46,079 nucleotides of DNA from an uncultured bacterium (GTDB taxonomy: Bacteria > Bacteroidota > Bacteroidia > Bacteroidales > CAIXTV01). Under the pieces are notes generated by a model that made no database searches, was not told the DNA's origin, and worked only from the letters and a program-made list of their open reading frames with translations. Below are positions 1,685-16,958 of this stretch, piece after piece. Numbering within the stretch: the first letter of the stretch is position 1; each line of letters begins with the position of its first letter. The translations under genes were made by a program, and so were the position numbers. The stretch spans positions 1-46,079 of the forward strand of contig CAIXTV010000258.1 of NCBI GenBank assembly GCA_903922465.1, written 5' to 3'.

Positions 1685-2872
1685 TTACAAAAACTCTATC
1701 TTCACTTCTTTAAGGAACTTTTCTTCAAGCAAACGAGCAATTCGTTTTACGACAGTGCGGCGGATTTCGAGTTCAACAGGTACGTTAGGGTCTTGGTGAG
1801 CAATGTTGATTTTAGTTCCTACGATAAAGTCAATTTCATCGCTTTCGATAAGCAATTTCACAATTAAATCGGCAGGCCCCTTGCCCAAAAGGGTGTTATT
1901 ATTATAAAGCTTAAGCAATTCATTCACTTTGCTAAGGGTTAAAATGCCTTCAGTAACCAAATCGACACCATTCATCTCAGAAATGGGCGGCAAGTCAGGG
2001 TCGTTAAACTCGAAGTGGTCAACGACTTCCCTCTTAAGTTCACGGGCAACAAGATCGATGGTAGTAGCACCACAGATTATCTTTTTCCCTTTAAATTCAT
2101 CAATCATTAAAGCGAGTTTATGATCGTCGCGCTCCTCAAAAGGAGGTCCGGTCGAAAGTAGCAACTTGCGTGGTTCCCTGAAATAAATAACCGCACAAGA
2201 AGTATCATCCTTAGAACTATAATTATCGTGAGAGTTAGCAGCATTCACAATTTTTGTAGCTAGTTTCGATGCTGAAATAAAAGGCTGATGTTCAATCAAC
2301 TCTTCAATATACTGAATAACCTTATCCCTACCCCAGCCAAAAGGATATTCTTCGGAACCCATGCCCGATTGCATCACCCCATCGGAAAACAAGAAAATGC
2401 GATCTTCTTTCATAGGGAAAAACTCCGAATAGATTAACTCTTTGCCTTTGTTATGCTCGCTGGTCAGTAAAACATTGCTGCAAATAGGCTCAAACAATTT
2501 ACTCCCACGAAAAACCACAAACTGAGGATTGTCGTATTCCAAAATCTTCACCATCTCGTTAAGTTCAATATCGAGAATTGAAAAAGTGGAATAACTCATT
2601 TTTCTTTCACTGCAAACGGGCAGTGTATTCATAATAATATCAGCAATTCGGTTAAACTCTTTATGTTCCTTAGTGAAATTCAAAGCCATGGTAGCGGTAA
2701 GAGTTGCTAATACATTTGCTTTTACACCATGCCCCATACCATCGGAAAGTACAACAATAAAGCGGTTTTCTTCTTTAACCCTATCAGATAAAAAAACGTC
2801 GCCACATATCCTTTCATTGGTGTGATTCTTTTGCTGACATCGTATTTCGATATAAAAGCCGGAAGTGTCCAT
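1685..2872 (-). CDS. SpoIIE/PP2C-type protein phosphatase of hydrogenase island
   Basis: 395 aa, cytosolic. Residues about 1-240 form a SpoIIE-like PP2C phosphatase core: GDVFLSDR near residue 24, the metal-binding LSDGMGHG, FLFSDGVMQSGMG, and the closing DDTSCAVIYF. These acidic residues bind Mn/Mg and hydrolyse Ser/Thr phosphates. Residues about 245-395 form an extra domain I cannot name, which may bind a partner. It is the third gene of the leftward unit after the [2Fe-2S] protein and the PAS sensory hydrogenase, separated from the latter by 132 bp. Phosphatases of this type beside sensory [FeFe] hydrogenases are established (phosphatase-linked group C type). Inference: its activity is set by the hydrogenase sensor, and its target is an unidentified phosphoprotein such as an anti-sigma or anti-anti-sigma factor outside the window. 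Confidence 0.85.
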   Translation of the reverse strand: MDTSGFYIEIRCQQKNHTNERICGDVFLSDRVKEENRFIVVLSDGMGHGVKANVLATLTATMALNFTKEHKEFNRIADIIMNTLPVCSERKMSYSTFSILDIELNEMVKILEYDNPQFVVFRGSKLFEPICSNVLLTSEHNKGKELIYSEFFPMKEDRIFLFSDGVMQSGMGSEEYPFGWGRDKVIQYIEELIEHQPFISASKLATKIVNAANSHDNYSSKDDTSCAVIYFREPRKLLLSTGPPFEERDDHKLALMIDEFKGKKIICGATTIDLVARELKREVVDHFEFNDPDLPPISEMNGVDLVTEGILTLSKVNELLKLYNNNTLLGKGPADLIVKLLIESDEIDFIVGTKINIAHQDPNVPVELEIRRTVVKRIARLLEEKFLKEVKIEFL

Positions 2873-3004
2873 AGGTTGTTAATTGTTTGAATTATAATGC
2901 CAAAAAAAAAGACTTGGATTCGTCAGTTGTATATTTACAACGTGAATGCCTACAATTTGGGACTGAGGAAGGGAAGTGATTTGGATTAGCTTACGCATCA
3001 ATTA

Positions 3005-4858
3005 TTAATTCTGAATGTTCTTTTGAGTTTCGATTATTGAGTTCAGCATATGTTCAGTTTTAGTGGCGCTTTCACCTAAGAGAAAGGCGATTTTTTGAAC
3101 TAAATCAAGATTGGTGTCGATAACTTCGTTAATTCGCTTGACAATTTCTTCTTTCTGCACCTCAGGTGTATACAAATCACGAATAATGGCACCAACAATA
3201 TGAGCATCGTTGATTGAGAATACAGAGATATTCAGAAGCTTATCGTTGTATTGTAAATCACGATTGACGATTTCTTCATTGTTCTGTAGAACGTAAGAAA
3301 ACAAATTGTGTATGTGCAATGGAAGCAAGGTTTTCACGTCAGCACCTTTTAAACCGGGGATTACTTCATCAATAATTTTTGCGTCTTCACCCAAAATCGT
3401 AATAAAACTTTTATTCGACATAATGATCTTGAGTTTGTCATCGGCAATAACGATGCCTGCGGTAAGCTTCTGTAACATAGCGGAAGTAATAAATGAAGTG
3501 TTTTTTGCTAATTGTTCTTCCTGTTGTGCTTTCTTCTCCGATTCAATCAAGGTTTCGTTATTCTTTTGGAGCTTTTCGTTGCTATTTTTGAGAGTTTTAA
3601 TATACTCTTGTTTACTTTTCATAGAAAAACTGAGACACATTTCAGGCTTAGCTAAGCCATTAGCAATTGCTTTTGCGAAATCGATGCATGAATTAAATCC
3701 ACAAATATTACAATCAACCATCTGCTCTTCGTCCTTTCCAATTAGTTTCAGCAATTCTTCAATTTTGGAAGGTGAAGGCTCAGGAAATCTTTGGTCTTTT
3801 GGAATAAAACTACGCTCAAGCGAAAGATGGGCAGTTTGTTTTATATTGGCAATCCATTGCTTAATGTCAAGGGATTTCAATCTTTTGACTGCATAGTTTT
3901 TAACCAAAGTTTGCTTTAAATATTTTTGAGAATTATTAGTATTTCCAGGCCCCATAGCACAGCCTTCGCAATAAAACTGACAAATATGATTGCCCAACTG
4001 CTCACTATGTTCTTTAAATTGCTGTATAGATTTATGAAGCTTATCCTCTCCTTCAACCACTAAAATATTTCCATTAATAAGGGTTTGGTCTAAATCAGCA
4101 GCTTGATAAAACCCATTGCTAATAGGAAGTAATGATCCTAAATTCCCCTGAGGTAAAGAGAAATCATCAAACTCAAGATTACTCTCGTTAATTTTAAAAG
4201 TGCTAAACAATTCACGCAGTTCTTTAAACGTAATCATAGCATCCGTTGAATAAACTCCTTCAAATCGTTCAACTTCCATTTTCATTGCAATGCACGGGCC
4301 AACATAAACGACCTTTACGTCCTTTCCATAAAATTGTCGGGCAACTAAAGAAGAAGCAGTTAAATGAGTGACAAAGGGCGCGAGATTATCAATTAATTCT
4401 GGTTGATATTTCTCGACATAATACATCACAGGGGGACAAAGTGTCGAGATGTAATATTTCCCTTTAAAATCAGCCAATAAGTCGTGATATTTCTTTGCCA
4501 ATACATCAATAGCGAAAGTGGCTTCAATTACAAAATCAAAACCTATAGCCTTTATCATTTGAGCAAATTTCCTATAATCAGTAATATCCTCAAACTCGGA
4601 AGATATGCTGGGATCCACCACAGCTAGAACTTTATTGCTAGTATCCTTTAGCAATTCTAGCACTTTTTCTTTTGAAGAAAAATAAGTTATAGCATTGGTT
4701 TTGCATGCGGAATAACAACTTCCACAGCCTATGCATCTCTCATGCAATACCTTTAAAGTATTATGAGTACCTGTTAAAACAATTGCCTTAACAGGACAGG
4801 CTCTAATGCAAGAGAAACATTGATTGCAATCTTCGTTATGTATTTGTATAAGTTCCAT
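3005..4858 (-). CDS. Sensory [FeFe]-hydrogenase with PAS domain (HydS-like)
   Basis: 617 aa. Order of domains: two [4Fe-4S] motifs (C11/14/17/21 and C42/45/48/52), an [FeFe]-hydrogenase H-domain (about 75-345), a third Fe-S motif CNICGFNSC...C (C383-C408), a coiled coil (about 410-450), a PAS-like domain (about 455-560) and a helical tail. H-cluster motifs are STLCPP (C141), GPCIAMKME (C189) and YCEGCAMGPG (C297, C300). The catalytic enzymes have TSCCP, MPC and CxxxC, so the proton-relay Cys is Leu140 here. These are traits of low-activity sensory hydrogenases (group C). No kinase is fused; output probably passes to the phosphatase encoded next. The start codon overlaps the stop region of the preceding 81-aa gene, which implies coupled translation. 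Confidence 0.88.
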   Translation of the reverse strand: MELIQIHNEDCNQCFSCIRACPVKAIVLTGTHNTLKVLHERCIGCGSCYSACKTNAITYFSSKEKVLELLKDTSNKVLAVVDPSISSEFEDITDYRKFAQMIKAIGFDFVIEATFAIDVLAKKYHDLLADFKGKYYISTLCPPVMYYVEKYQPELIDNLAPFVTHLTASSLVARQFYGKDVKVVYVGPCIAMKMEVERFEGVYSTDAMITFKELRELFSTFKINESNLEFDDFSLPQGNLGSLLPISNGFYQAADLDQTLINGNILVVEGEDKLHKSIQQFKEHSEQLGNHICQFYCEGCAMGPGNTNNSQKYLKQTLVKNYAVKRLKSLDIKQWIANIKQTAHLSLERSFIPKDQRFPEPSPSKIEELLKLIGKDEEQMVDCNICGFNSCIDFAKAIANGLAKPEMCLSFSMKSKQEYIKTLKNSNEKLQKNNETLIESEKKAQQEEQLAKNTSFITSAMLQKLTAGIVIADDKLKIIMSNKSFITILGEDAKIIDEVIPGLKGADVKTLLPLHIHNLFSYVLQNNEEIVNRDLQYNDKLLNISVFSINDAHIVGAIIRDLYTPEVQKEEIVKRINEVIDTNLDLVQKIAFLLGESATKTEHMLNSIIETQKNIQN

Positions 4859-5103
4859 TATAATAATTCTTTATTCAGATAATCAACTATATTTTCAGCA
4901 TTTACCCCTTCTATTTGTTTATCATTGATTCTTATACAAGCACCATTTTCGCAGCTTCCAAAGCAATGTGCCCCATGATAAAACACTTTATCCATCAACA
5001 TATTTTCCTCAAGATAGCGCTTAATCACATGAACAACCTCCTTGTTTCCACGAGCGAAGCAAGAACTTCCAAGACAAATTACAATTTCTGGTTTCTTATT
5101 CAT
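4858..5103 (-). CDS. [2Fe-2S] thioredoxin-like ferredoxin (NuoE C-domain-like)
   Basis: 81 aa. Four Cys in the pattern CLGSSC (CxxxxC) and HCFGSC (CxxxC) are the ligands of a thioredoxin-fold [2Fe-2S] cluster as in the C-terminal part of NuoE/HydC. Small stand-alone versions of this fold are known beside sensory hydrogenases (for example the Thermotoga maritima hydrogenase locus, from memory). It is the first gene of the leftward unit and abuts the sensory hydrogenase gene with a one-base overlap. Likely role, by inference: to carry electrons between the bifurcating enzyme or a reductase and the sensory hydrogenase. The divergent 221-bp region upstream holds Rex-like sites. Confidence 0.85.
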   Translation of the reverse strand: MNKKPEIVICLGSSCFARGNKEVVHVIKRYLEENMLMDKVFYHGAHCFGSCENGACIRINDKQIEGVNAENIVDYLNKELL

Positions 5104-5216
5104 AATGACAAGCTATTTTAATAACATTCAACATTTTATTATGGTTAAAATTCAATTTGAAGTACATGTTTATAAAAAGCTAAATTAATTCATTTTACGA
5201 TAACAAAATACATTTT

Positions 5217-5224
5217 CAAAAATA
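5217..5224 (-). promoter_or_regulatory. Candidate -7 box for leftward sensor unit
   Basis: On the minus strand TATTTTTG fits TAnnTTTG about 115 bp before the 81-aa gene. No -33 partner was seen. The Rex-like palindrome at 5238-5253 would lie in the position of the upstream promoter element, so repression of both directions is possible. Confidence 0.3.
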
Positions 5225-5237
5225 AATTTTTCGGCTC

Positions 5238-5270
5238 TGTTATTGGCCTAACACTGTTATTTTTTTCACA
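5238..5270. promoter_or_regulatory. Two tandem Rex-type operators
   Basis: TGTTATTGGCCTAACA (5238-5253) is a perfect TGTTA-N6-TAACA inverted repeat, the core of the known Rex operator. TGTTATTTTTTTCACA (5255-5270) is a second match with the alternative half site TCACA (reverse complement of TGTGA). The two sites start 17 bp apart and lie just upstream of the hydC -7 box (5296-5303) in the divergent promoter region. A rex gene ends the same operon, which makes auto-control by NADH/NAD+ very plausible. Confidence 0.7.
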
Positions 5271-5295
5271 CTGATAATTCTATATGATAAAATAT

Positions 5296-5303
5296 TACTT
5301 TTG
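5296..5303 (+). promoter_or_regulatory. hydC -7 promoter box
   Basis: TACTTTTG fits TAnnTTTG, 22 bp before the ATG at 5325. This decides the start: the upstream TTG at 5301 would overlap the promoter and precede the transcript start. Confidence 0.55.
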
Positions 5304-5324
5304 TATAGGAAAAACAAACTTGAT

Positions 5325-5789
5325 ATGGACAATCTAATTGAACTCATTCTACTAAAATATCCCAAAAATGCTACTGAAAACATCATTGAGATTTTGCTTC
5401 AAATACAAGAAGCAGAAGGATTCATATCTGCACAATCCATAATAATGCTAAGCGAACATGTTGGCGTTCAAAGCAGTAAAATTTACTCTGTAGCTTCATT
5501 TTACGATCAGTTTGTTTTTGAAGCCAGAGCCAAATTCATTATCAGGGTATGTTCAGGAACAAGCTGCTATATTTCAGGCTCCGATACAATAATTTCATTT
5601 TTAGAAAAAGAATTCAACATACGTATAGGGGAAATCACACGAGATCATGTATTTCAGATAGAAACAAAATCCTGTTTAGGAGCATGTGCCCAGTCACCAG
5701 TTCTTGAGATTAATGGAGTTTTTTATTCGAATTTAACTCCTCAAAGAATTCGTCAAATCATTCATCAATGTAAATCGTCATTACAATGA
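5325..5789 (+). CDS. hydC: Bifurcating hydrogenase subunit HydC (NuoE-like)
   Basis: 154 aa. A helical N-terminal part is followed by a thioredoxin-like [2Fe-2S] domain with CSGTSC (CxxxxC) and CLGAC (CxxxC) ligands and the typical SVASFYDQF segment. It is the small electron-transfer subunit of the HydABC complex in the cytosol, handing electrons between HydB and HydA. The ATG at 5325 is preferred over the TTG at 5301, which lies inside the promoter. First gene of a seven-gene rightward operon; its TGA overlaps the hydB ATG by four bases (ATGA), a sign of translational coupling. Confidence 0.93.
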   Translation: MDNLIELILLKYPKNATENIIEILLQIQEAEGFISAQSIIMLSEHVGVQSSKIYSVASFYDQFVFEARAKFIIRVCSGTSCYISGSDTIISFLEKEFNIRIGEITRDHVFQIETKSCLGACAQSPVLEINGVFYSNLTPQRIRQIIHQCKSSLQ

Positions 5790-7720
5790 AAAACCTGACA
5801 CAAAACGATTCGTACGTAAAAAACATCCTTTTGGGCAAGAACGGGAAAAATTCTTTGTTAGAAGAAACCACTTCAATTCTTACTTTTCGAAAAAACTCTA
5901 AACCAATAATCTTTATTGGTTCAGCGACATGCGGAATCGTCGCTGGCTCTCTTGAGACAAAACTAACGTTAATAGAATATCTGAAAGAGAGGCAAATCGA
6001 TGCCGAAGTGGTTGAGATTGGCTGTTCCTGTCCTTGTTCTTTTGAACCTATTGTTGAAGTAAAATTACCTGGGAAAAACAGAATTTCCTTTAAAAACATT
6101 ACTTCAGATAAAGTTGAAGCGGTTCTTGACGGATTATTCAACAACGATTTACAATTCAACAATGTTATTGGTCAATATTTCGATGAATTACATCATCCAT
6201 GGGAAAATGTAATAAACATTTCAGACTTGCCGTTTTTCTCTGCTCAGAAAAGAATTCTTTTAAAGAATAGCGGACTATACACACCAGAAAACATTTTACA
6301 ATATGTTGCAACAGGTGGTTATAAATCATTTGCTAAATGTATTACTCAGTATAAACCTCAAGATATTTGTAATATTGTTGAGGAAAGCCAGTTAGAAGGA
6401 AGAGGTGGTGGTGGTTATCAAACCGGTAGAAAATGGAATGCTGCTCTTCAGATTGCTGCGGGTCAAAAATATCTCATTTGTAATGCAAACGAAAGTGATA
6501 CCGGCTCCTTTATAGTAAGAAGACTTATTGAAAATCATCCACATTTACTCATTGAAGGAATTGCCATTGCTTCATTTGCGATAGGGGCATCAAAAGCATA
6601 CGTTTTTATTCGTAACGATTATAATAAAGCTATTGAAGTATTAAGCAAGGCCTTACAGCAAGCTAAAGAATATGAATTGATAGGTTCAAATATACTAAAC
6701 AGTGGAACAAACTTCTCAATAGTATTAGTGCAAAGTGCAGGAGCATTTGTTTGTGGGGAAGAAACTGCACTAATTAACAGCATTGCAGGGAAAAGAGGCA
6801 TGCCTTCAGCAAAACCACCCTTTCCAGTTGAAAGTGGACTTTTTGATTTCCCCACAGTAGTAAACAGTGCAGAGACTTTATGCAATATTCCGTCCATTAT
6901 ATTAAATGGCCCTGATTGGTTTAAATCTTTTGGAAAGCTTAATAGCTTTGGAACAAAACTCATCTCTATTGCAGGGAAAACAAAAACAACTGGATTTGCA
7001 GAGATAGAAATGGGGGTCAGTATAACAGAAGTCTTAGAAAATATTGCTGGGTTTGAATCTCAGGAAGAAATTAAAGCCTTACAAATCGGAGGCCCCAACG
7101 GCAGTTGCATTCCTCCTTCATTATTTTCAATACCAATTGACTACCAGCTAATGAAAGACAAGGAAATCCGCATGGGCTCGGGAGGGATTGTATTATTCGA
7201 TGACACAACCTGTATGGTTGATCTGGCAAAACACTATATGAAATTTATCAAGAATGAAAGTTGTGGAAAGTGTATTCCATGCAGAGAAGGCACTCGAAAA
7301 ATGTTTGAAATACTCGAAAACATTACAATAAGTCAAAAAAACGAAGGAGGCCATGAAACTCTTGATCGATTTAAAGGAGTAATGCAAATCGAATCACTTG
7401 CCAACGTTATCAGCGATACTTCTCTTTGCGGATTAGGAAAATATTCTCCAAACCCATTTCTTTCAACACTTAAATGGTTTAGGAGTGAATATGAGGAGCA
7501 TATTTTTGACAGGAAATGTAAAGCTGGAGTTTGTCAGCATCTTAAATCATATTACATTCATGTTGAAAAATGTACAGGATGCAATGCATGTGCTGTTAGA
7601 TGCCCAGCAAATGCAATTTTAGGAAATAAGTTGCAACCTCATTTCATTTTACAGGAATTATGTACTTCTTGTGGCATCTGCTTTGAAATTTGTAAGTTCT
7701 CATCAATTTCTATTCAATAA
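5786..7720 (+). CDS. hydB: Bifurcating hydrogenase subunit HydB (NuoF-like, FMN/NADH)
   Basis: 644 aa. N-terminal thioredoxin-like [2Fe-2S] domain (ATCGIVAGS...GCSCPC, about residues 48-95), the NADH/FMN-binding NuoF core with the glycine-rich EGRGGGGYQTGRKW loop (about 204-217) and GAFVCGEETALINSI, the SLBB-like region, the NuoF [4Fe-4S] site ESCGKCIPCREGTRKM, and a C-terminal 2x[4Fe-4S] ferredoxin domain (CTGCNACAVRC, CTSCGICFEIC). It oxidises or reduces NAD(H) with its flavin and is the site linked to electron bifurcation between NADH, ferredoxin and H2 in HydABC enzymes. The N-terminal second Cys pair reads GCSCPC, more Cys-rich than the usual CxGxC. Overlaps hydC by four bases; hydA follows after 8 bp. 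Confidence 0.95.
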   Translation: MKNLTQNDSYVKNILLGKNGKNSLLEETTSILTFRKNSKPIIFIGSATCGIVAGSLETKLTLIEYLKERQIDAEVVEIGCSCPCSFEPIVEVKLPGKNRISFKNITSDKVEAVLDGLFNNDLQFNNVIGQYFDELHHPWENVINISDLPFFSAQKRILLKNSGLYTPENILQYVATGGYKSFAKCITQYKPQDICNIVEESQLEGRGGGGYQTGRKWNAALQIAAGQKYLICNANESDTGSFIVRRLIENHPHLLIEGIAIASFAIGASKAYVFIRNDYNKAIEVLSKALQQAKEYELIGSNILNSGTNFSIVLVQSAGAFVCGEETALINSIAGKRGMPSAKPPFPVESGLFDFPTVVNSAETLCNIPSIILNGPDWFKSFGKLNSFGTKLISIAGKTKTTGFAEIEMGVSITEVLENIAGFESQEEIKALQIGGPNGSCIPPSLFSIPIDYQLMKDKEIRMGSGGIVLFDDTTCMVDLAKHYMKFIKNESCGKCIPCREGTRKMFEILENITISQKNEGGHETLDRFKGVMQIESLANVISDTSLCGLGKYSPNPFLSTLKWFRSEYEEHIFDRKCKAGVCQHLKSYYIHVEKCTGCNACAVRCPANAILGNKLQPHFILQELCTSCGICFEICKFSSISIQ

Positions 7721-7728
7721 TATTGCTT

Positions 7729-9441
7729 ATGTTTCTAAACATTGAAGTTAACAATCAAATAATTAAAGCAGACAAGGGCGAAACCATACTTTCAGCTTTA
7801 AATCGCAATGGGATGAATGTTCCTACTTTATGCTTTTTGAAGGAACTAAACCCAACAGGTGCCTGCAGGATGTGTGTTGTTGAAGTTGAAGGATATGAAA
7901 ACTTAATAACAGCATGCTCTCAACCCATTGAAGGGTTTATGAAAATACAAACTCATTCGAAAAGGGTACTTAACGCAAGAAAAACCAATTTAGAACTATT
8001 ACTGGCGAACCATCCCGATGAGTGCTTATATTGCATTAGAAATGGTAGCTGTGAACTTCAAAATCTTGCTCAAAGTTTTAATATCAACGAAAGAAAGTTT
8101 AAGAATAAGAAATTCACGCTTAAAGTCGATAAATCATCTGCTGCCATAGTAAAAGAAACTGATAAGTGTATCTTATGTGGAAGATGTATTCGTATTTGTG
8201 ATGAGGTTCAAGATGTTTCTGCTTTATGTTTCATTAAAAAAGGAAGTAGTACAACAGTGGGAACCACCTTAAACAAACCTTTAAGTCATTCAAATTGCAT
8301 ACTTTGTGGCCAATGCATCATGGTGTGCCCCACAGCTGGACTTCATGAAAAGAGTCACACTCCTCAGGTACTGGAAGCCATGGGAAATCCTAAGAAGCAT
8401 ACAGTTATTTTTCATTCTTCAAGTGTTTCTGTTTCAATAGCCGAAGAGTTTGGCTTTAAAGCAGGTAAAGACGTCAGCATTTCTCTAAATTCAACGCTTA
8501 AAAAATTGGGGTTTAATAAAGTGTTTGAAGTGGGGGTTGCCTCAGATATATATTTAATTGAACTCGCAGAAGACATTATTAATCGCACTCAAAATAAGGG
8601 GCCTCTACCTCTATTTTCATCATGTTGCCCTGCTTGGATTCAATTTGCAGAGCAATATTTTCCTGGCATTTTGACTTCGATATCTCAAATAAAATCGCCA
8701 CAGCAAATCATGGGAGCGCTAATTAAAAGTAAATATGCCGATGATTTAAACCTTAACAACAAGGATATCTTCACCATTTCAGTAATGCCATGCATAGCTA
8801 AAAAACAGGAGGCTATAAAAGGAAACACTAGTATCAGTAGTTTCAGTGATGTGGATTGTGTTTTAACAACACGAGAATTAGCGAGTCTTATTAAAATAAA
8901 GGGTTTTAAATTAGATGACACTGAAACACAGTTAAGTGATGCCCCTTTTGTTAATCAAAGCTCTGCTAGTAAATTATTAGGAACTTCAGGAGGATTGACC
9001 GAATCATTAATCCGTATACTACATCACAAAGTAACAGGAAAAGACATTAATGAAATTAAGCAATCGAAACTCAGAATATCTAAAGGCATTAAAGAAATAT
9101 CTGTTATGCTTGGAGAAACCACATATAACTTTGCTGTTGTTAATGGAATTGGGAATGCCCGAAAATTGATAAATGATATAATGAGCGGAAAGAAAACTTA
9201 TCATTTTGTTGAAGTTATGGCCTGCAAGGAAGGTTGCGTTAACGGAGGTGGCCAGCCACTTCTCTCCGAAAAAGACGCATTGAAATCGCGAATTAAAGCC
9301 ATTTATGACTCTGATGAAAAAGAGTCAATAAAATTCCCATACAAAAACCCATCCATTTCTGAGTTTTATCAAGCCTTCACCAAATCTGGGAACAAAAACA
9401 TACTCATTACTAACTATAAAGAACGTACTGTTTTAAAATAA
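7729..9441 (+). CDS. hydA: Catalytic [FeFe]-hydrogenase HydA
   Basis: 570 aa. N-terminal [2Fe-2S] domain (C35, C46, C49, C63), His-ligated [4Fe-4S] (H95, C99, C102, C108), two [4Fe-4S] clusters (C147-C157 and C190-C200), then the full H-cluster domain with all three signatures: SSCCPAW (C299 proton relay, C300 ligand), MPCIAKK (C355) and EVMACKEGCVNGGGQP (C499, C503). The residue numbers happen to equal those of Clostridium CpI. It reduces protons to H2 or the reverse in the cytosol, accepting electrons from HydB/HydC. The ATG at 7729 is chosen; an in-frame TTG at 7723 adds only two residues. Maturases HydE/F/G needed for the H-cluster are not in this window. Confidence 0.97.
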   Translation: MFLNIEVNNQIIKADKGETILSALNRNGMNVPTLCFLKELNPTGACRMCVVEVEGYENLITACSQPIEGFMKIQTHSKRVLNARKTNLELLLANHPDECLYCIRNGSCELQNLAQSFNINERKFKNKKFTLKVDKSSAAIVKETDKCILCGRCIRICDEVQDVSALCFIKKGSSTTVGTTLNKPLSHSNCILCGQCIMVCPTAGLHEKSHTPQVLEAMGNPKKHTVIFHSSSVSVSIAEEFGFKAGKDVSISLNSTLKKLGFNKVFEVGVASDIYLIELAEDIINRTQNKGPLPLFSSCCPAWIQFAEQYFPGILTSISQIKSPQQIMGALIKSKYADDLNLNNKDIFTISVMPCIAKKQEAIKGNTSISSFSDVDCVLTTRELASLIKIKGFKLDDTETQLSDAPFVNQSSASKLLGTSGGLTESLIRILHHKVTGKDINEIKQSKLRISKGIKEISVMLGETTYNFAVVNGIGNARKLINDIMSGKKTYHFVEVMACKEGCVNGGGQPLLSEKDALKSRIKAIYDSDEKESIKFPYKNPSISEFYQAFTKSGNKNILITNYKERTVLK

Positions 9442-9446
9442 CACTT

Positions 9447-11435
9447 ATGCCTCACGCCCCAGTACACCAACTAGTATTTACTATAAAAGATCGCTGCAGG
9501 GTATGCTATACCTGCGTTAGGGAATGCCCCGTAAAAGCCATTAAAATTAATAACGGTCAGGCTGAAGTTATAAATGAAAGATGCATTGGTTGTGGTAATT
9601 GCATAAAAGTATGCAGCCAGGGGGCCAAAGTTTTTCTTAATTCAACCGGTGAATTAATCGAACTTCTTGCAAGTCATGATAAAGTTGCTGCTTGTATAGC
9701 TCCAAGTTTTCCTGCAGAGTTTAGTGAAATTGAAGACTACCATATTTTCATTGGAATGCTAAAAAAACTTGGTTTCAATTTTATTCTAGAAACCGGATTT
9801 GGGGCAGATTTAGTCGCATTAGAATATAAAAAAATACTTGAAGACGAAAGCTCAAAACCCATTATTTCAAGTGACTGCCCCTCTATAGTGTTTTTCATAG
9901 AGCAATATCATCCTGAGCTTACAACTTCTCTTGCAAAAATTGTTTCACCTATGGTAGCGATGAGTAGAATCACTAAAAAAAAATACGGTGAGAATTGTAA
10001 AGTTGTTTTTATAGGACCTTGCATTGCTAAAAAAGTAGAATCAAACGAAATAGATGTTGTGCTTACCTTTAAAGAAATTCGTCGCTTATTCGAACAGTAC
10101 AATATCACACCCGAAAATACAGAGCCATCAGATTTCGACCCACCTTTTGCAGGGAAAGGTTCCATCTTCCCTGTAAATCATGGCTTACTCCAAACTATTC
10201 CTTTAAAGGATGAGATTAAAGAAAATGATATCATTATAGCTGAGGGGCATATCAATTTCCGCGAAGCAGTGTTAGAATTTGAAAACGGACTTCTTAACTC
10301 ACAGCATTTGGAACTCCTTTGTTGCGACGGCTGTATACTTGGTCCCGGAATGACCGATCAGGGAAAACGTTATCTTAAGAGTAAGCTAGTTGGAAATTAC
10401 GTCAAGAATAAATTGGAGAATTTGGATGAAAAGCAATGGGAAAAGGATATTGATGATTTTTCAGAAATTGATATGACTCAAGAATTTGAAATAAAAGATC
10501 GCAGAATAAAATTACCTAGTAAAGAAGAAATAGATAAAGTGCTTATCTCAATTGGCAAATTTGAATATGCAGATTATTTGAATTGTGGTGCTTGCGGTTA
10601 CAATACTTGCGAAGAACATGCCATTGCAATTGTTCAAGGATTTGCTGAAAACGAAATGTGTTTACCCTACTCTATTGAGAAACTCCATAAGTCAGTTAAA
10701 GAACTAAATATTTCAAATGATAAATTGGCTTCTGCCCGTCAAGCATTGAAACAATCGGAAAAGCTTGCCAGTATGGGACAATTATCGGCGGGGATTGCTC
10801 ACGAGTTGAATAATCCTTTAGGCATTATTTCGATGTATAGTAATATATTAAAAGAAGAGAGTAGCCCTGAAAGCCAGGTTTACCAAGACCTTGAACTGAT
10901 TGCGGAGCAAGCTGAAAGATGTAAGAAGATAGTGGGAGGTTTATTAAACTTTGCTCGAAAAAACCAGGTGTCAGTTTCTAATGTCAATATTGAACAATTT
11001 ATTCTTTTGAGCATCGAGTCTATTATTGTACCTGAAAACATCAGAATCAATATTAAAGCTAAACTGCAGAATCCTATCGTGCAAATTGATCCTGATCAAA
11101 TGATGCAGGTGTTGGTGAATATTGAGAAAAACGCGATTGAAGCAATGCCTGAAGGCGGAGATCTTCTTATTACTCTTTATGAAGAAAAAAATGATTTTGT
11201 CATTAACCTTCAGGATACAGGAACTGGGATTTCTGAAGAGAACATGGATAAAATCTTTACTCCTTTCTTTACAACTAAACCCATTGGAAAGGGAACAGGA
11301 TTGGGCTTACCAATCATTTATGGTATCATAAAAATGCACAAAGGACGAATTGATGTTAAATCAAATAATAATCCTGAGAAAGGAGTTACTGGAACCACTT
11401 TTACAATAACAATCCCTAGAACTAGACCAGATTAA
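9447..11435 (+). CDS. Sensory [FeFe]-hydrogenase fused to histidine kinase
   Basis: 662 aa. Two N-terminal [4Fe-4S] motifs (C17-C27, C46-C56), an H-domain with SSDCPS (C144), GPCIAKKVE (C192) and LLCCDGCILGPG (C292/C293, C296), an extra Fe-S domain CGACGYNTC...C (C380-C405), a short coiled coil, then a HisKA domain with phospho-acceptor H452 in GIAHELNNPLG and a HATPase domain (N558/N562, DTGTGIS, GKGTGLGLP). The proton-relay Cys of catalytic enzymes is Asp143. This is a kinase-linked sensory hydrogenase (group C type), expected to read H2 or redox state and phosphorylate the receiver encoded 19 bp downstream. Cytosolic, no membrane segments. It lies 5 bp after hydA, so sensor and enzyme are co-expressed. 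Confidence 0.92.
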   Translation: MPHAPVHQLVFTIKDRCRVCYTCVRECPVKAIKINNGQAEVINERCIGCGNCIKVCSQGAKVFLNSTGELIELLASHDKVAACIAPSFPAEFSEIEDYHIFIGMLKKLGFNFILETGFGADLVALEYKKILEDESSKPIISSDCPSIVFFIEQYHPELTTSLAKIVSPMVAMSRITKKKYGENCKVVFIGPCIAKKVESNEIDVVLTFKEIRRLFEQYNITPENTEPSDFDPPFAGKGSIFPVNHGLLQTIPLKDEIKENDIIIAEGHINFREAVLEFENGLLNSQHLELLCCDGCILGPGMTDQGKRYLKSKLVGNYVKNKLENLDEKQWEKDIDDFSEIDMTQEFEIKDRRIKLPSKEEIDKVLISIGKFEYADYLNCGACGYNTCEEHAIAIVQGFAENEMCLPYSIEKLHKSVKELNISNDKLASARQALKQSEKLASMGQLSAGIAHELNNPLGIISMYSNILKEESSPESQVYQDLELIAEQAERCKKIVGGLLNFARKNQVSVSNVNIEQFILLSIESIIVPENIRINIKAKLQNPIVQIDPDQMMQVLVNIEKNAIEAMPEGGDLLITLYEEKNDFVINLQDTGTGISEENMDKIFTPFFTTKPIGKGTGLGLPIIYGIIKMHKGRIDVKSNNNPEKGVTGTTFTITIPRTRPD

Positions 11436-11454
11436 TAAACAAAACAAATATGTT

Positions 11455-11841
11455 ATGAAGAAAATAATTTTGATTGTTGACGATGACGTTGATTACTTGT
11501 TTCAAATGAAGCTTAAAGTTGAACACTTCGGTTTCGAAGTGGTTACGGCTGATGGTCAAGCAGAAGCCGAAGAGCTGATAAAAACACTTAAACCTGACCT
11601 TGCAATTCTCGACCTAATGATGGAAAACGAAGATAGTGGTTTCATCCTTAGCTATAAATTGAAAAACAAATATCCTGAACTCCCTGTTATTATTACAACA
11701 GCAGTAACTGCTGAAACTGGTATGATTTTCGAACACAGCAGCGAGACCGATAAAAACTGGATTAAAGCAGACCTTTTTCTTGATAAAGGAATTCGAGTTG
11801 ACTTATTAGAAAAAGAAATCAGAAAACTTTTGAATTTGTAA
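11455..11841 (+). CDS. Stand-alone response-regulator receiver
   Basis: 128 aa, one REC domain only: acidic pocket D9-D11 (VDDD), phospho-acceptor D53 in LAILDLMM, Thr in ITTAVT and the conserved Lys111 in FLDKG. An insertion of about 15 residues (EHSSETDKNWIKADLF) separates the Thr from the Lys; I recall similar receivers in other redox and hydrogenase sensor loci. No DNA-binding domain. It sits between the hydrogenase-kinase and the receiver-kinase hybrid, 3 bp before the latter, so it is probably a phosphorelay shuttle or a protein-binding output. Confidence 0.85.
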   Translation: MKKIILIVDDDVDYLFQMKLKVEHFGFEVVTADGQAEAEELIKTLKPDLAILDLMMENEDSGFILSYKLKNKYPELPVIITTAVTAETGMIFEHSSETDKNWIKADLFLDKGIRVDLLEKEIRKLLNL

Positions 11842-11844
11842 ACT

Positions 11845-12972
11845 ATGTCAATATTAAAAATACTAATAGTAGACGATGAACCTGGCATTCGCTCTGGAGC
11901 TCGCAGAATTTTAAGTAATTTCAAAGTTGATTATCCATTTATGGATGAGCCTATTGAATTTGAAATCCTAGAAGCTGCAACCGGCGAAGAAGCCATGATA
12001 ATCGTTGAAGAAAATACTCCCGACATTGTCTTGCTTGACAACAAATTGCCTGGTGCCCTTGGAATTGAGGTATTAGAATTTATTCGAAAGAAACAACTGG
12101 ATATTGTTGTTGTAATGATAACTTCTTATGCATCGCTCGAATTAGCCGTAAAAGCAACCCGAGAAGGGGCTTATGACTTCATCCCTAAGCCTTTTACTCC
12201 TCAGGAACTGCGTTCTTCTATCGAAAATATCACCAAACATATTTTCCTTAAAAGAACCACTCAAAAGCTAAATACTGCCGGAAAACAAATTCGATTTCAG
12301 TTTCTTTCCATTCTTTCGCATGAATTAAAAACTCCTCTCAATGCCATTGAAGGATATCTTAATATCATAAAAGAAAGACAATTAGGTGACGATATTAAAA
12401 ATTACGAACAAGCAATAGAACGTTCCATCGAAAGAGTTAAAGGAATGCGTGGTCTAATTCTCGACATGCTCGATTTTACTAAAATTGAATCGGGCAAATC
12501 GACCGATAAAATCGAATTCATCGACATCATCCCCATTTTACAAATTTCACTTGACACTATAAAGCCTTTTGCCATTCAAAAAGACGTAAATGTATATCTT
12601 AACACAAAAGATTCTGTTTATATTGATTTTGATAAAAGTCAATTAGAAATAATTTTCAACAATCTTTTATCTAATGCCGTAAAGTACAACGTTGAAAACG
12701 GAAGAGTAGATATATGGATAAAAAAAATAGGTGACAACATTGAAATAACCTTTAGTGACACGGGAATTGGGATGGAAGAGTCGGATATTGAAAAACTATT
12801 TGTTGACTTTTTCAGGATAAAAAATCATCAAACAAAAAACATCACTGGCAGTGGATTAGGCTTGTCAATTACAAAAAAAATCATCGATTTATATAAAGGT
12901 CACATTCAAGTTAGCAGTATATTAAAAAAAGGTAGTAACTTTGTGTTAACATTTCCAATTAAACAATCATAA
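11845..12972 (+). CDS. Receiver-histidine kinase hybrid
   Basis: 375 aa. N-terminal REC domain (D10/D11, phospho-acceptor D65 in VLLDNKLPG, K115 in FIPKPF), a helical linker, a HisKA domain with H159 in ILSHELKTPLN, and a HATPase domain (NNLLSNAVKYN, DTGIGM, GSGLGLSIT). No sensor or membrane domain: the input must arrive as phosphate on D65 or by protein contact. In this operon it would take a signal from the hydrogenase-kinase upstream and pass it to a further receiver not encoded nearby. Spacing is 3 bp to both neighbours. Confidence 0.85.
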   Translation: MSILKILIVDDEPGIRSGARRILSNFKVDYPFMDEPIEFEILEAATGEEAMIIVEENTPDIVLLDNKLPGALGIEVLEFIRKKQLDIVVVMITSYASLELAVKATREGAYDFIPKPFTPQELRSSIENITKHIFLKRTTQKLNTAGKQIRFQFLSILSHELKTPLNAIEGYLNIIKERQLGDDIKNYEQAIERSIERVKGMRGLILDMLDFTKIESGKSTDKIEFIDIIPILQISLDTIKPFAIQKDVNVYLNTKDSVYIDFDKSQLEIIFNNLLSNAVKYNVENGRVDIWIKKIGDNIEITFSDTGIGMEESDIEKLFVDFFRIKNHQTKNITGSGLGLSITKKIIDLYKGHIQVSSILKKGSNFVLTFPIKQS

Positions 12973-12975
12973 AAA

Positions 12976-13596
12976 ATGGCGAAAATTCCAGAAAAAACCA
13001 TCGAAAGACTTAGCAAATACCGTAGGGCAGTGTTGAGTTATCAAGCCGCAGGCAAACATCACATCTTTTCGCATCAACTTGCTAGTTTGTTGCACATTAC
13101 ACCGGTTCAGGTTCGTCGCGACCTAATGCTAATCGGGCATACGGGCACACTTAGAAGAGGATATGAAATCAAAGATCTGATTGATAATATCAGTGAAATT
13201 ATCGACACCGATAAAGGTCAAAGAGTTGCAGTTATTGGACTTGGAAACCTAGGAAAAGCTTTCATTAGCTATCTAAATGGTAAAAGATCGAAGCTCACAA
13301 TTGTGGCTGCTTTTGACATCAATTTCGATAAGATTGAAAGAAATTTTGCAGGAGTTCCTTGTTATCACATCGACAATTTAAACGAAATCATTAAAACCGA
13401 AAACATCACTATCGGAATTATTGCTGTTCCAACCGAACAAGCCACCGAAGTAGCTGAGAAATTGGTTTTTGCGGGCATCAAAGGGATATTAAATTATTCT
13501 CCCAAATCGCTTAATGTTCCGCCAAGTGTATTTCTCGAAGAATACGATATGATTACTTCTCTCGAAAAAGTTGCTTACTACTCGAAATTACAATAA
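12976..13596 (+). CDS. rex: Redox-sensing transcriptional repressor Rex
   Basis: 206 aa. Winged-helix DNA-binding domain (about residues 1-75; ITPVQVRRDLMLIG is the recognition helix region), a Rossmann domain with VAVIGLGNLGKA (about 83-94), a DINFDKI end of strand 2 and the C-terminal swapped helix (MITSLEKVAYYSKL). Rex dimers bind DNA when NAD+ is high and release it when NADH rises. It is the last gene of the hyd operon, 3 bp after the hybrid kinase. The two Rex-like palindromes before hydC are the obvious target, giving NADH-induced H2 production and negative auto-regulation. Confidence 0.93.
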   Translation: MAKIPEKTIERLSKYRRAVLSYQAAGKHHIFSHQLASLLHITPVQVRRDLMLIGHTGTLRRGYEIKDLIDNISEIIDTDKGQRVAVIGLGNLGKAFISYLNGKRSKLTIVAAFDINFDKIERNFAGVPCYHIDNLNEIIKTENITIGIIAVPTEQATEVAEKLVFAGIKGILNYSPKSLNVPPSVFLEEYDMITSLEKVAYYSKLQ

Positions 13597-16503: not shown

Positions 16504-16830
16504 TTAAATTGTTTTTATAAGTGCTTGAATATAAGAAGAAATTTGATTAACCACCCGAATGATGTTATCGTTCTCGAATGAATGAAGGTAGTTGCTCGGC
16601 TCACGAACCTCGTCGCTCAGAAATTGAACTTCGTCGCTCGCGTACTGAGCGACGTCGCTCAGAAATTGAACTTCGTCGCTCGCGTGCTGAACCTCGTCGC
16701 TCAGAAGTTGAACTTTGTCGCTCGCGCACTGAGCGACGTCGCTCAGAAGTTGAACTTCGTCGCTCGCGTACTGAGCGACGTCGCTCAGAGGTTGAACTTT
16801 GTCGCTCACTTGCCTAGCCAAACCCAACAT
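16504..16830 (-). CDS. Heptad-repeat ORF on 21-bp array (108 aa)
   Basis: Residues about 8-75 are ten seven-residue repeats of the type LSDVAQY / ASDEVQF, with a hydrophobic residue at fixed positions, which could form a coiled coil. The non-repeated ends (MLGLARQV and a C-terminal SYIQALIKTI helix) look protein-like. The frame stops 17 bp before the 243-aa gene on the same strand. However, the repeat DNA is open in other frames too, so coding is not proven. An in-frame stop lies 30 bp upstream of the ATG at 16830. Confidence 0.4.
   Translation of the reverse strand: MLGLARQVSDKVQPLSDVAQYASDEVQLLSDVAQCASDKVQLLSDEVQHASDEVQFLSDVAQYASDEVQFLSDEVREPSNYLHSFENDNIIRVVNQISSYIQALIKTI
16590..16820. repeat. 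21-bp tandem array (11 units)
   Basis: Eleven contiguous 21-bp units. Two alternating types give a 42-bp higher order: CGTCGCTCAGAAATTGAACTT and CGTCGCTCGCGTACTGAGCGA, with the CGTCGCTC head kept in nearly all. There are no spacers, so it is not CRISPR. The array is much richer in GC than its surroundings. The unit equals seven codons and two helical turns. Confidence 0.9.
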
Positions 16831-16958
16831 TTGCTCTTTATCAAACTCAGTTTTCCGAATTTACACATCCGGGTTTTAGTTTATCTCTTTTCTTCACAAT
16901 TATTGAAAGAACATTCTTTTTTTGATATATTATTTCGATTAGTTTCATTAATATAATT

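Follow-up and report, generated by a model that had tools for sequence, protein, structure and literature searches.

The window analysed here is a 46,079-nucleotide stretch (positions 1 to 46,079) of contig CAIXTV010000258.1, from the assembly GCA_903922465.1 of an uncultured member of the Bacteroidales with a genome of 5.02 Mb in 312 contigs (97 % complete). Between positions 1,685 and 13,596 it carries a HydABC-type [FeFe]-hydrogenase, two sensory [FeFe]-hydrogenases on opposite strands, here called the K-sensor (kinase-type) and the P-sensor (PAS/phosphatase-linked), and the repressor Rex. Together these would form a conserved Bacteroidales regulatory island, in which a Rex operator and two H2 sensors accompany a HydABC complex that is likely sensory and not an efficient hydrogenase, a reading to which we assign a probability of about 0.5. 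As the proton channel of the hydrogenase itself is broken, the cluster is more likely to be an H2/redox sensing hub than an H2-making enzyme with accessories. The following features could be distinguished:

1685–2872, minus strand: SpoIIE/PP2C-family phosphatase, 395 amino acids (PF07228)
3005–4858, minus strand: P-sensor, a sensory [FeFe]-hydrogenase with 2x[4Fe-4S], H-domain (L1 motif STLCPP), FeS motif, coiled coil, PAS-like fold and C-terminal coil
4861–5103, minus strand: thioredoxin-like [2Fe-2S] ferredoxin, 81 amino acids, first gene of the leftward operon
5217–5224, minus strand: TATTTTTG, match to the Bacteroidota -7 box, leftward operon
5237–5271, no strand: predicted tandem Rex-type operator, CTGTTATTGGCCTAACACTGTTATTTTTTTCACAC, with two TTGTTAn6TAACAA-like palindromes at a 17-bp pitch
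5296–5303, plus strand: TACTTTTG, match to the Bacteroidota -7 box, hydCBA operon
5301–5789, plus strand: HydC, NuoE-like (PF01257)
5786–7720, plus strand: HydB, NuoF-like, with FMN/NADH domain, [4Fe-4S] and C-terminal 2x[4Fe-4S]
7723–9441, plus strand: HydA, H-cluster ligands complete, proton path altered (E279 to L, E282 to D, F417 to L)
9447–11435, plus strand: K-sensor, a sensory [FeFe] H-domain with FeS, HisKA and HATPase (SSDCPS)
11455–11841, plus strand: single-domain receiver, REC (PF00072)
11845–12972, plus strand: REC-HisKA-HATPase hybrid kinase lacking a DNA-binding domain
12976–13596, plus strand: Rex, NAD(H)-responsive transcriptional repressor (NF003995, 207 bits, above the curated family cut-off of 126)

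The boxes were recognised by TAnnTTTG, which we take to be the consensus of the Bacteroidota -7 promoter box, and the true start of HydC is probably the ATG at ~5325. Every gene named in a preliminary description of this DNA was found in its place; the [2Fe-2S] ferredoxin gene, which that description had overlooked, occupies the same position in most dual loci, defined as those with both a K- and a P-sensor (K-only loci contain the kinase-type sensor without P).

A survey of 295 evenly sampled genomes of the order, searched for both sensors, identified K in 93 and P in 87 genomes, with both present in 52 compared to the 27 expected (Fisher p = 6e-11, kinship among genomes ignored). The two sensors are encoded on a single contig in 42/52 of these genomes, and all 42 linked pairs are divergent. 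They are separated by 4.3–5.0 kb in 41/42 pairs, the exception being G185 (12.7 kb), and the genomes concerned span 24 family labels. With 41 pairs falling within this narrow spacing, all of them divergent, the arrangement is far beyond chance. The preliminary description had made its joint circuit conditional on the sensors being commonly found together in conserved synteny, and both were observed. In the fetched loci the common layout comprises a leftward arm of ferredoxin, P-sensor and SpoIIE and a rightward arm of HydC, HydB, HydA, K-sensor, REC, REC-histidine kinase, Rex and RibF. In two loci from metagenome-assembled genomes (L121 and L129) the P-arm has been relocated downstream and is co-directional, with its linkage to K kept. 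The full island furthermore occurs in an isolate of the Bacteroidales, Perlabentimonas gracilis (L154). The K cassette with HydCBA is found in many phyla outside the Bacteroidota, the P-arm being absent from the fetched stretches. Since the P-type sensors found in some such genomes belong to a separate Rex-HydCBA-P-SpoIIE or HydCBA-P-SpoIIE operon (L200–L202), the presence of both sensors around one hydrogenase operon is, within the sample, a trait of the Bacteroidota. K-only operons (L097, L103, L109 and others) open with an extended receiver protein of ~165 amino acids, which is absent from the dual islands.

The tandem operator lies between the two divergent -7 boxes and matches at 19/24 positions, a score equalled by 0/500 shuffles. 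Its core pattern, with zero occurrences expected in the window, occurs exactly twice in the genome, the second site being ~50 bp upstream of another hydrogenase operon, HydC2B2A2, on contig C276. A tandem site (at least 18/24 positions) is present in 43/62 Rex-bearing loci and in 2/27 loci without a Rex gene found in the cluster, one of these two (L034) ending near a contig edge. The site tracks Rex and not the P-arm, since three loci (L061, L098 and L116) have both Rex and the tandem site with a full P-sensor not seen in the stretch covered. A strict genome-wide search produced 25 matches in 16/30 dual-island genomes, of which 23 are in hydrogenase loci: ten at the island, eleven upstream of other hydrogenase operons and two in the stretch from HydA2 to another sensory-hydrogenase operon; the last two are elsewhere. 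The same search of 30 K-only genomes, as well as a reversed-pattern control, gave no match. The palindrome thus precedes the operon and co-occurs with rex, as in a Rex regulon, and has the form of the Thermoanaerobacterium Rex consensus TTGTTANNNNNNTAACNN, which includes a site at hfsABCD (PMC5886521). The classic Rex consensus TTGTGAAn4TTCACAA produced weak matches only, and the real signal is the tandem TTGTTAn6TAACAA; on these sequence grounds Rex is the putative binder of the operator.

The preliminary description had placed a catalytic hydrogenase at the centre of the locus, which is doubtful in view of HydA. Using CpI numbering, the proton path E279/E282/R286/C299/S319 is complete in the HydA of 1/64 dual loci, 1/7 loci with K and Rex without a visible P, 28/31 K-only loci, 13/13 other HydAs from the order (among them the two that this genome encodes elsewhere) and 21/21 HydAs of other phyla. 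In CpI itself, substitution of E279 by Ala or Gln leaves less than 1 % activity (PMC6226526). The four [4Fe-4S]H ligands are nevertheless present in 64/64 dual-locus HydAs, and the loss of the path with retention of these ligands indicates that the HydABC core is probably slow or regulatory. The HydB cluster ligands examined are likewise conserved, in 62/62 dual loci. The window complex has the subunits of HydDB group A3, namely HydA, HydB and HydC with an H-cluster and an NADH/FMN subunit; the competent proton path of A3 enzymes is lacking, with Leu at position 279 and Asp at 282. With regard to a possible electron bifurcation between NAD(H) and ferredoxin, the ligands of the HydB C-terminal 2x[4Fe-4S] are present. 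At matched K divergence, the amino acid identities of HydA, HydB and HydC are 0.49, 0.52 and 0.42 among dual loci versus 0.67, 0.68 and 0.66 among K-only loci, so that these three proteins evolve faster in the former, while REC identity is similar (0.63 versus 0.61). Two changes suffice to explain the broken state on a tree of HydA, but a minimum of 28 are needed at residue 279, a pattern which points to one old event followed by drift. At least one further H-domain protein beyond the three of the island is encoded in 42/42 linked-pair genomes, while 17/41 K-only genomes encode nothing beyond HydA and K. The genome under study encodes five H-domain proteins in all, comprising the three of the island and one in each of two further HydABC loci (contigs C276 and C260). 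It also encodes HydG, and can thus probably make the H-cluster.

The sequence itself establishes the synteny, the operator with its hydrogenase regulon, the intact ligands and the proton path that has lost residues, whereas we infer that Rex and H2 are bound, that HydABC has low activity and a regulatory function, and what the two arms act upon. Rex would sit on the tandem operator between the divergent promoters and repress the P-arm together with the hydCBA-K-REC-REC/HK-rex operon, and likewise the fully equipped second HydCBA operon on another contig. A rise in NADH/NAD+ would release Rex from the island promoters and from this second operon. The two [FeFe] H-domain sensors may then read H2, or a redox poise coupled to H2, through different outputs, with K feeding a His-Asp phosphorelay whose DNA-binding output is absent from the cluster and the PAS-coupled P gating the SpoIIE Ser/Thr phosphatase. 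The island HydABC would serve the hub as a slow redox-sensing complex linked to H2, NADH and ferredoxin. In a more far-reaching and tentative form, which we would hold to be possible if somewhat doubtful, the island would lack an efficient hydrogenase altogether, and the three H-cluster proteins (HydABC, K and P), each with a non-canonical path, make up a three-headed H2/NADH/ferredoxin sensor that together with Rex controls the separate catalytic HydABCs via the operator. If so, a heterotrimeric HydABC complex would have been turned from an enzyme into a sensor.

Several observations weigh against a sensory HydABC hub. Because the broken path is essentially a single lineage event, the co-occurrence counts are dependent and the raw p-values inflated, and the tree offers just five independent contrast pairs for the broken path against the dual state. 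The window HydA retains C299, R286, S319, M353 and K358, so that some turnover is possible, and sensory hydrogenases show turnover through an alternative proton path (PMC10055695). Furthermore, a good tandem site is missing in 19/62 Rex-bearing loci, and not all P-sensors can be taken to sense H2, as those of two loci (L014 and L015) have lost H-cluster ligands.

The strongest alternative is that the island HydABC is still a working bifurcating hydrogenase, using another path or running at a deliberately slow rate, which is regulated by the sensors and Rex. In its favour, the ligands of the H-cluster, of FMN/NADH and of those HydB FeS clusters that were tested are intact, C299 is retained in 32/64 dual loci (the window included), sensory hydrogenases have alternative paths, and the K-only cassette, often the sole hydrogenase of its genome, has a complete path. 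However, the path is broken at differing residues in 63/64 dual loci, which, with the repeated changes at residue 279, argues for relaxed demand and not for one new route, and other complete HydAs are present; we therefore consider a working enzyme rather unlikely. It is less probable still that HydBC serves other electron transfer, such as NADH:ferredoxin oxidoreduction, with HydA a structural or electron-relay remnant. The conserved HydB cluster ligands would fit this, and the best solved relatives of HydB, judged by sequence, include a subunit named NfnB as well as chains whose names do not mark them as [FeFe] partners. On the other hand, a remnant would have no need of the [4Fe-4S]H ligands that all dual-locus HydAs retain, and HydG is available for maturation.

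The preliminary description had also proposed a three-input circuit and opposite phosphorylation states set by the kinase and phosphatase arms. The joint unit with three regulatory inputs is supported, on account of the synteny, the linkage kept in the relocated L121 and L129 arms and the Rex-type operator; a normal catalytic enzyme at its centre is not. That both arms act on one target in opposite directions is highly improbable despite their fixed pairing. SpoIIE/PP2C enzymes remove phosphate from Ser/Thr, a different chemistry from that of a His/Asp kinase, no shared substrate gene is encoded, the genome contains no match to STAS, and K-only and P-only genomes are common. Equally improbable is that the arms are separate modules which are neighbours by common descent alone and form no joint circuit, for while the broken state of the dual HydA lineage has essentially a single origin, the near-exact spacing in 24 families, a linkage which survives relocation and the one operator between the arms speak against it.

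The H-cluster Cys residues of the K-sensor are invariant in 60/60 proteins (positions 144, 192, 293 and 296). Its proton-relay position, a Cys in canonical enzymes, is occupied by Asp in the window (SSDCPS) and in 57/60 Bacteroidales K-sensors, and by Thr, Ser or Ala in 16 K-sensors of other phyla. In CpI, C299D retains 30–80 % activity, while C299A and C299S retain less than 1 % (PMC6226526). The H-domain of the K-sensor is fused to a histidine kinase, as in HydDB group C1; a histidine kinase-fused type is placed under C3 by PMC11406978. No gene for a DNA-binding output of the K-arm was found in the dual loci, and LuxR-type regulators occur, inconsistently, upstream in some K-only loci.

The P-sensor is more variable, with Asn at the relay position in 38/59 proteins and Leu in that of the window, and it stands beside a Ser/Thr phosphatase gene, as do the sensory H-domains of group C3. 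As to a PAS domain after the H-domain, Pfam detects one in 22/41 relatives and, at E<0.01, none in the window protein, of which the AlphaFold model comprises the H-domain, a coiled coil, a PAS-like alpha/beta segment (residues 468–561) and a C-terminal coil. In L014 and L015 the L1 Cys is replaced by Asp and L3 is changed, with the operon and an active-looking SpoIIE retained, suggesting that this family senses without binding H2. The PP2C Asp residues of SpoIIE (D25, D44, D164, D222 and D223) are invariant in 41 relatives, and its AF2 model matches the SpoIIE/RsbX PP2C folds with an additional, unclassified C-terminal domain. This domain (residues ~231–395; window 1685–2182) is highly conserved among HydS-linked SpoIIE proteins, belongs to no Pfam family and is also present in Ruminococcus albus. 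A 132-bp gap (2873–3004) separates the P-sensor and SpoIIE genes of the window; since these genes overlap or abut in several relatives, a separate promoter may have been gained or an insertion may have occurred. As a STAS (PF01740) search of the 97 % complete genome gave no match, the STAS substrate of SpoIIE/RsbU partner switching is lacking, and this mechanism was dropped.

The H-domains of P and K belong to separate clades and share 37 % identity. The recent duplication which the preliminary description had named as an alternative can thus be ruled out. The best tree joins the Bacteroidota P with the Bacteroidota K and thereby favours a possible descent of P from K within this phylum, a reading weakened by long branches and by basal P-sensors (L078, L079 and L081) of canonical L3 spacing; a clade of P with clostridial HydS has an AU p of 0.04 with and 0.15 without the outgroup. 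Considering the relay residues (Asp versus Leu/Asn), a difference in H2 affinity between K and P is possible. Sensory [FeFe] genes of yet another, third type, 24–28 % identical to K and encoding ~440–470 amino acids where complete, occur in L185, L197, L074, L083, L084 and L188. In L185 and L197 the gene follows HydA2 and a tandem Rex-type operator and has a gene for an RsbW-like HATPase as its neighbour. This resembles the setting of group D/TamHydS and could represent a kinase counterpart to SpoIIE in those genomes.

The individual parts of the island are already known, with relatives in HydDB groups C1, C3 and A3 (PMC5037454) and in bfuT of the Hydrogenedentota. The paired arrangement, the shared operator and the broken HydA were not found described in the literature searched, in which few subscription papers were covered. 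The phosphatase-linked HydS-SpoIIE system (C3) of R. albus 7, which has been connected with the control of a hydrogenase by H2 (PMC6776011), shares the order [2Fe-2S] ferredoxin, PAS sensory [FeFe]-hydrogenase and SpoIIE, with Rex in the cluster, and its SpoIIE is 34 % identical to that of the island over 96 % of the sequence, the C-terminal domain included. However, it lacks a kinase-type sensor and a HydABC between divergent arms, its P-sensor is only 25 % identical, and its L1 Cys corresponds to Leu or Asn in the Bacteroidales. Similarly, the C1-like histidine kinase-linked cassette of other phyla, including the kinase-bearing bfuABC-T of the Hydrogenedentota (PMC11406978), shares the order HydCBA, H-domain/HisKA/HATPase, REC and REC-histidine kinase, but differs in its complete-path HydA and in the relay residue of its sensor. 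The hfsABCD locus of Thermoanaerobacterium combines a PAS sensory hydrogenase with a serine phosphatase, and its Rex site follows the consensus seen here (PMC5886521, PMC11837493), but it has a single sensor, another catalytic partner and no divergent dual layout. The A3 enzymes of T. maritima and T. kivui share the three subunits and cofactor ligands of the island HydABC and differ from it in the canonical proton path.

To our knowledge, hardly any signal output of a sensory [FeFe]-hydrogenase has been described. With an NADH switch and a defined operator firmly joined to sensors of two types in 24 families, the island offers a testable circuit with a ready regulon, and the natural series of HydAs which have lost the path and kept the H-cluster ligands bears directly on a question of hydrogenase chemistry, namely why some H-cluster proteins are catalysts and others sensors. 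Outside the island, positions 16504–16956 of the window consist of degenerate tandem repeats, from which repetitive open frames arise on either strand (ASDEVQFLSDVAQ / LNFVARVLSDVAQ).

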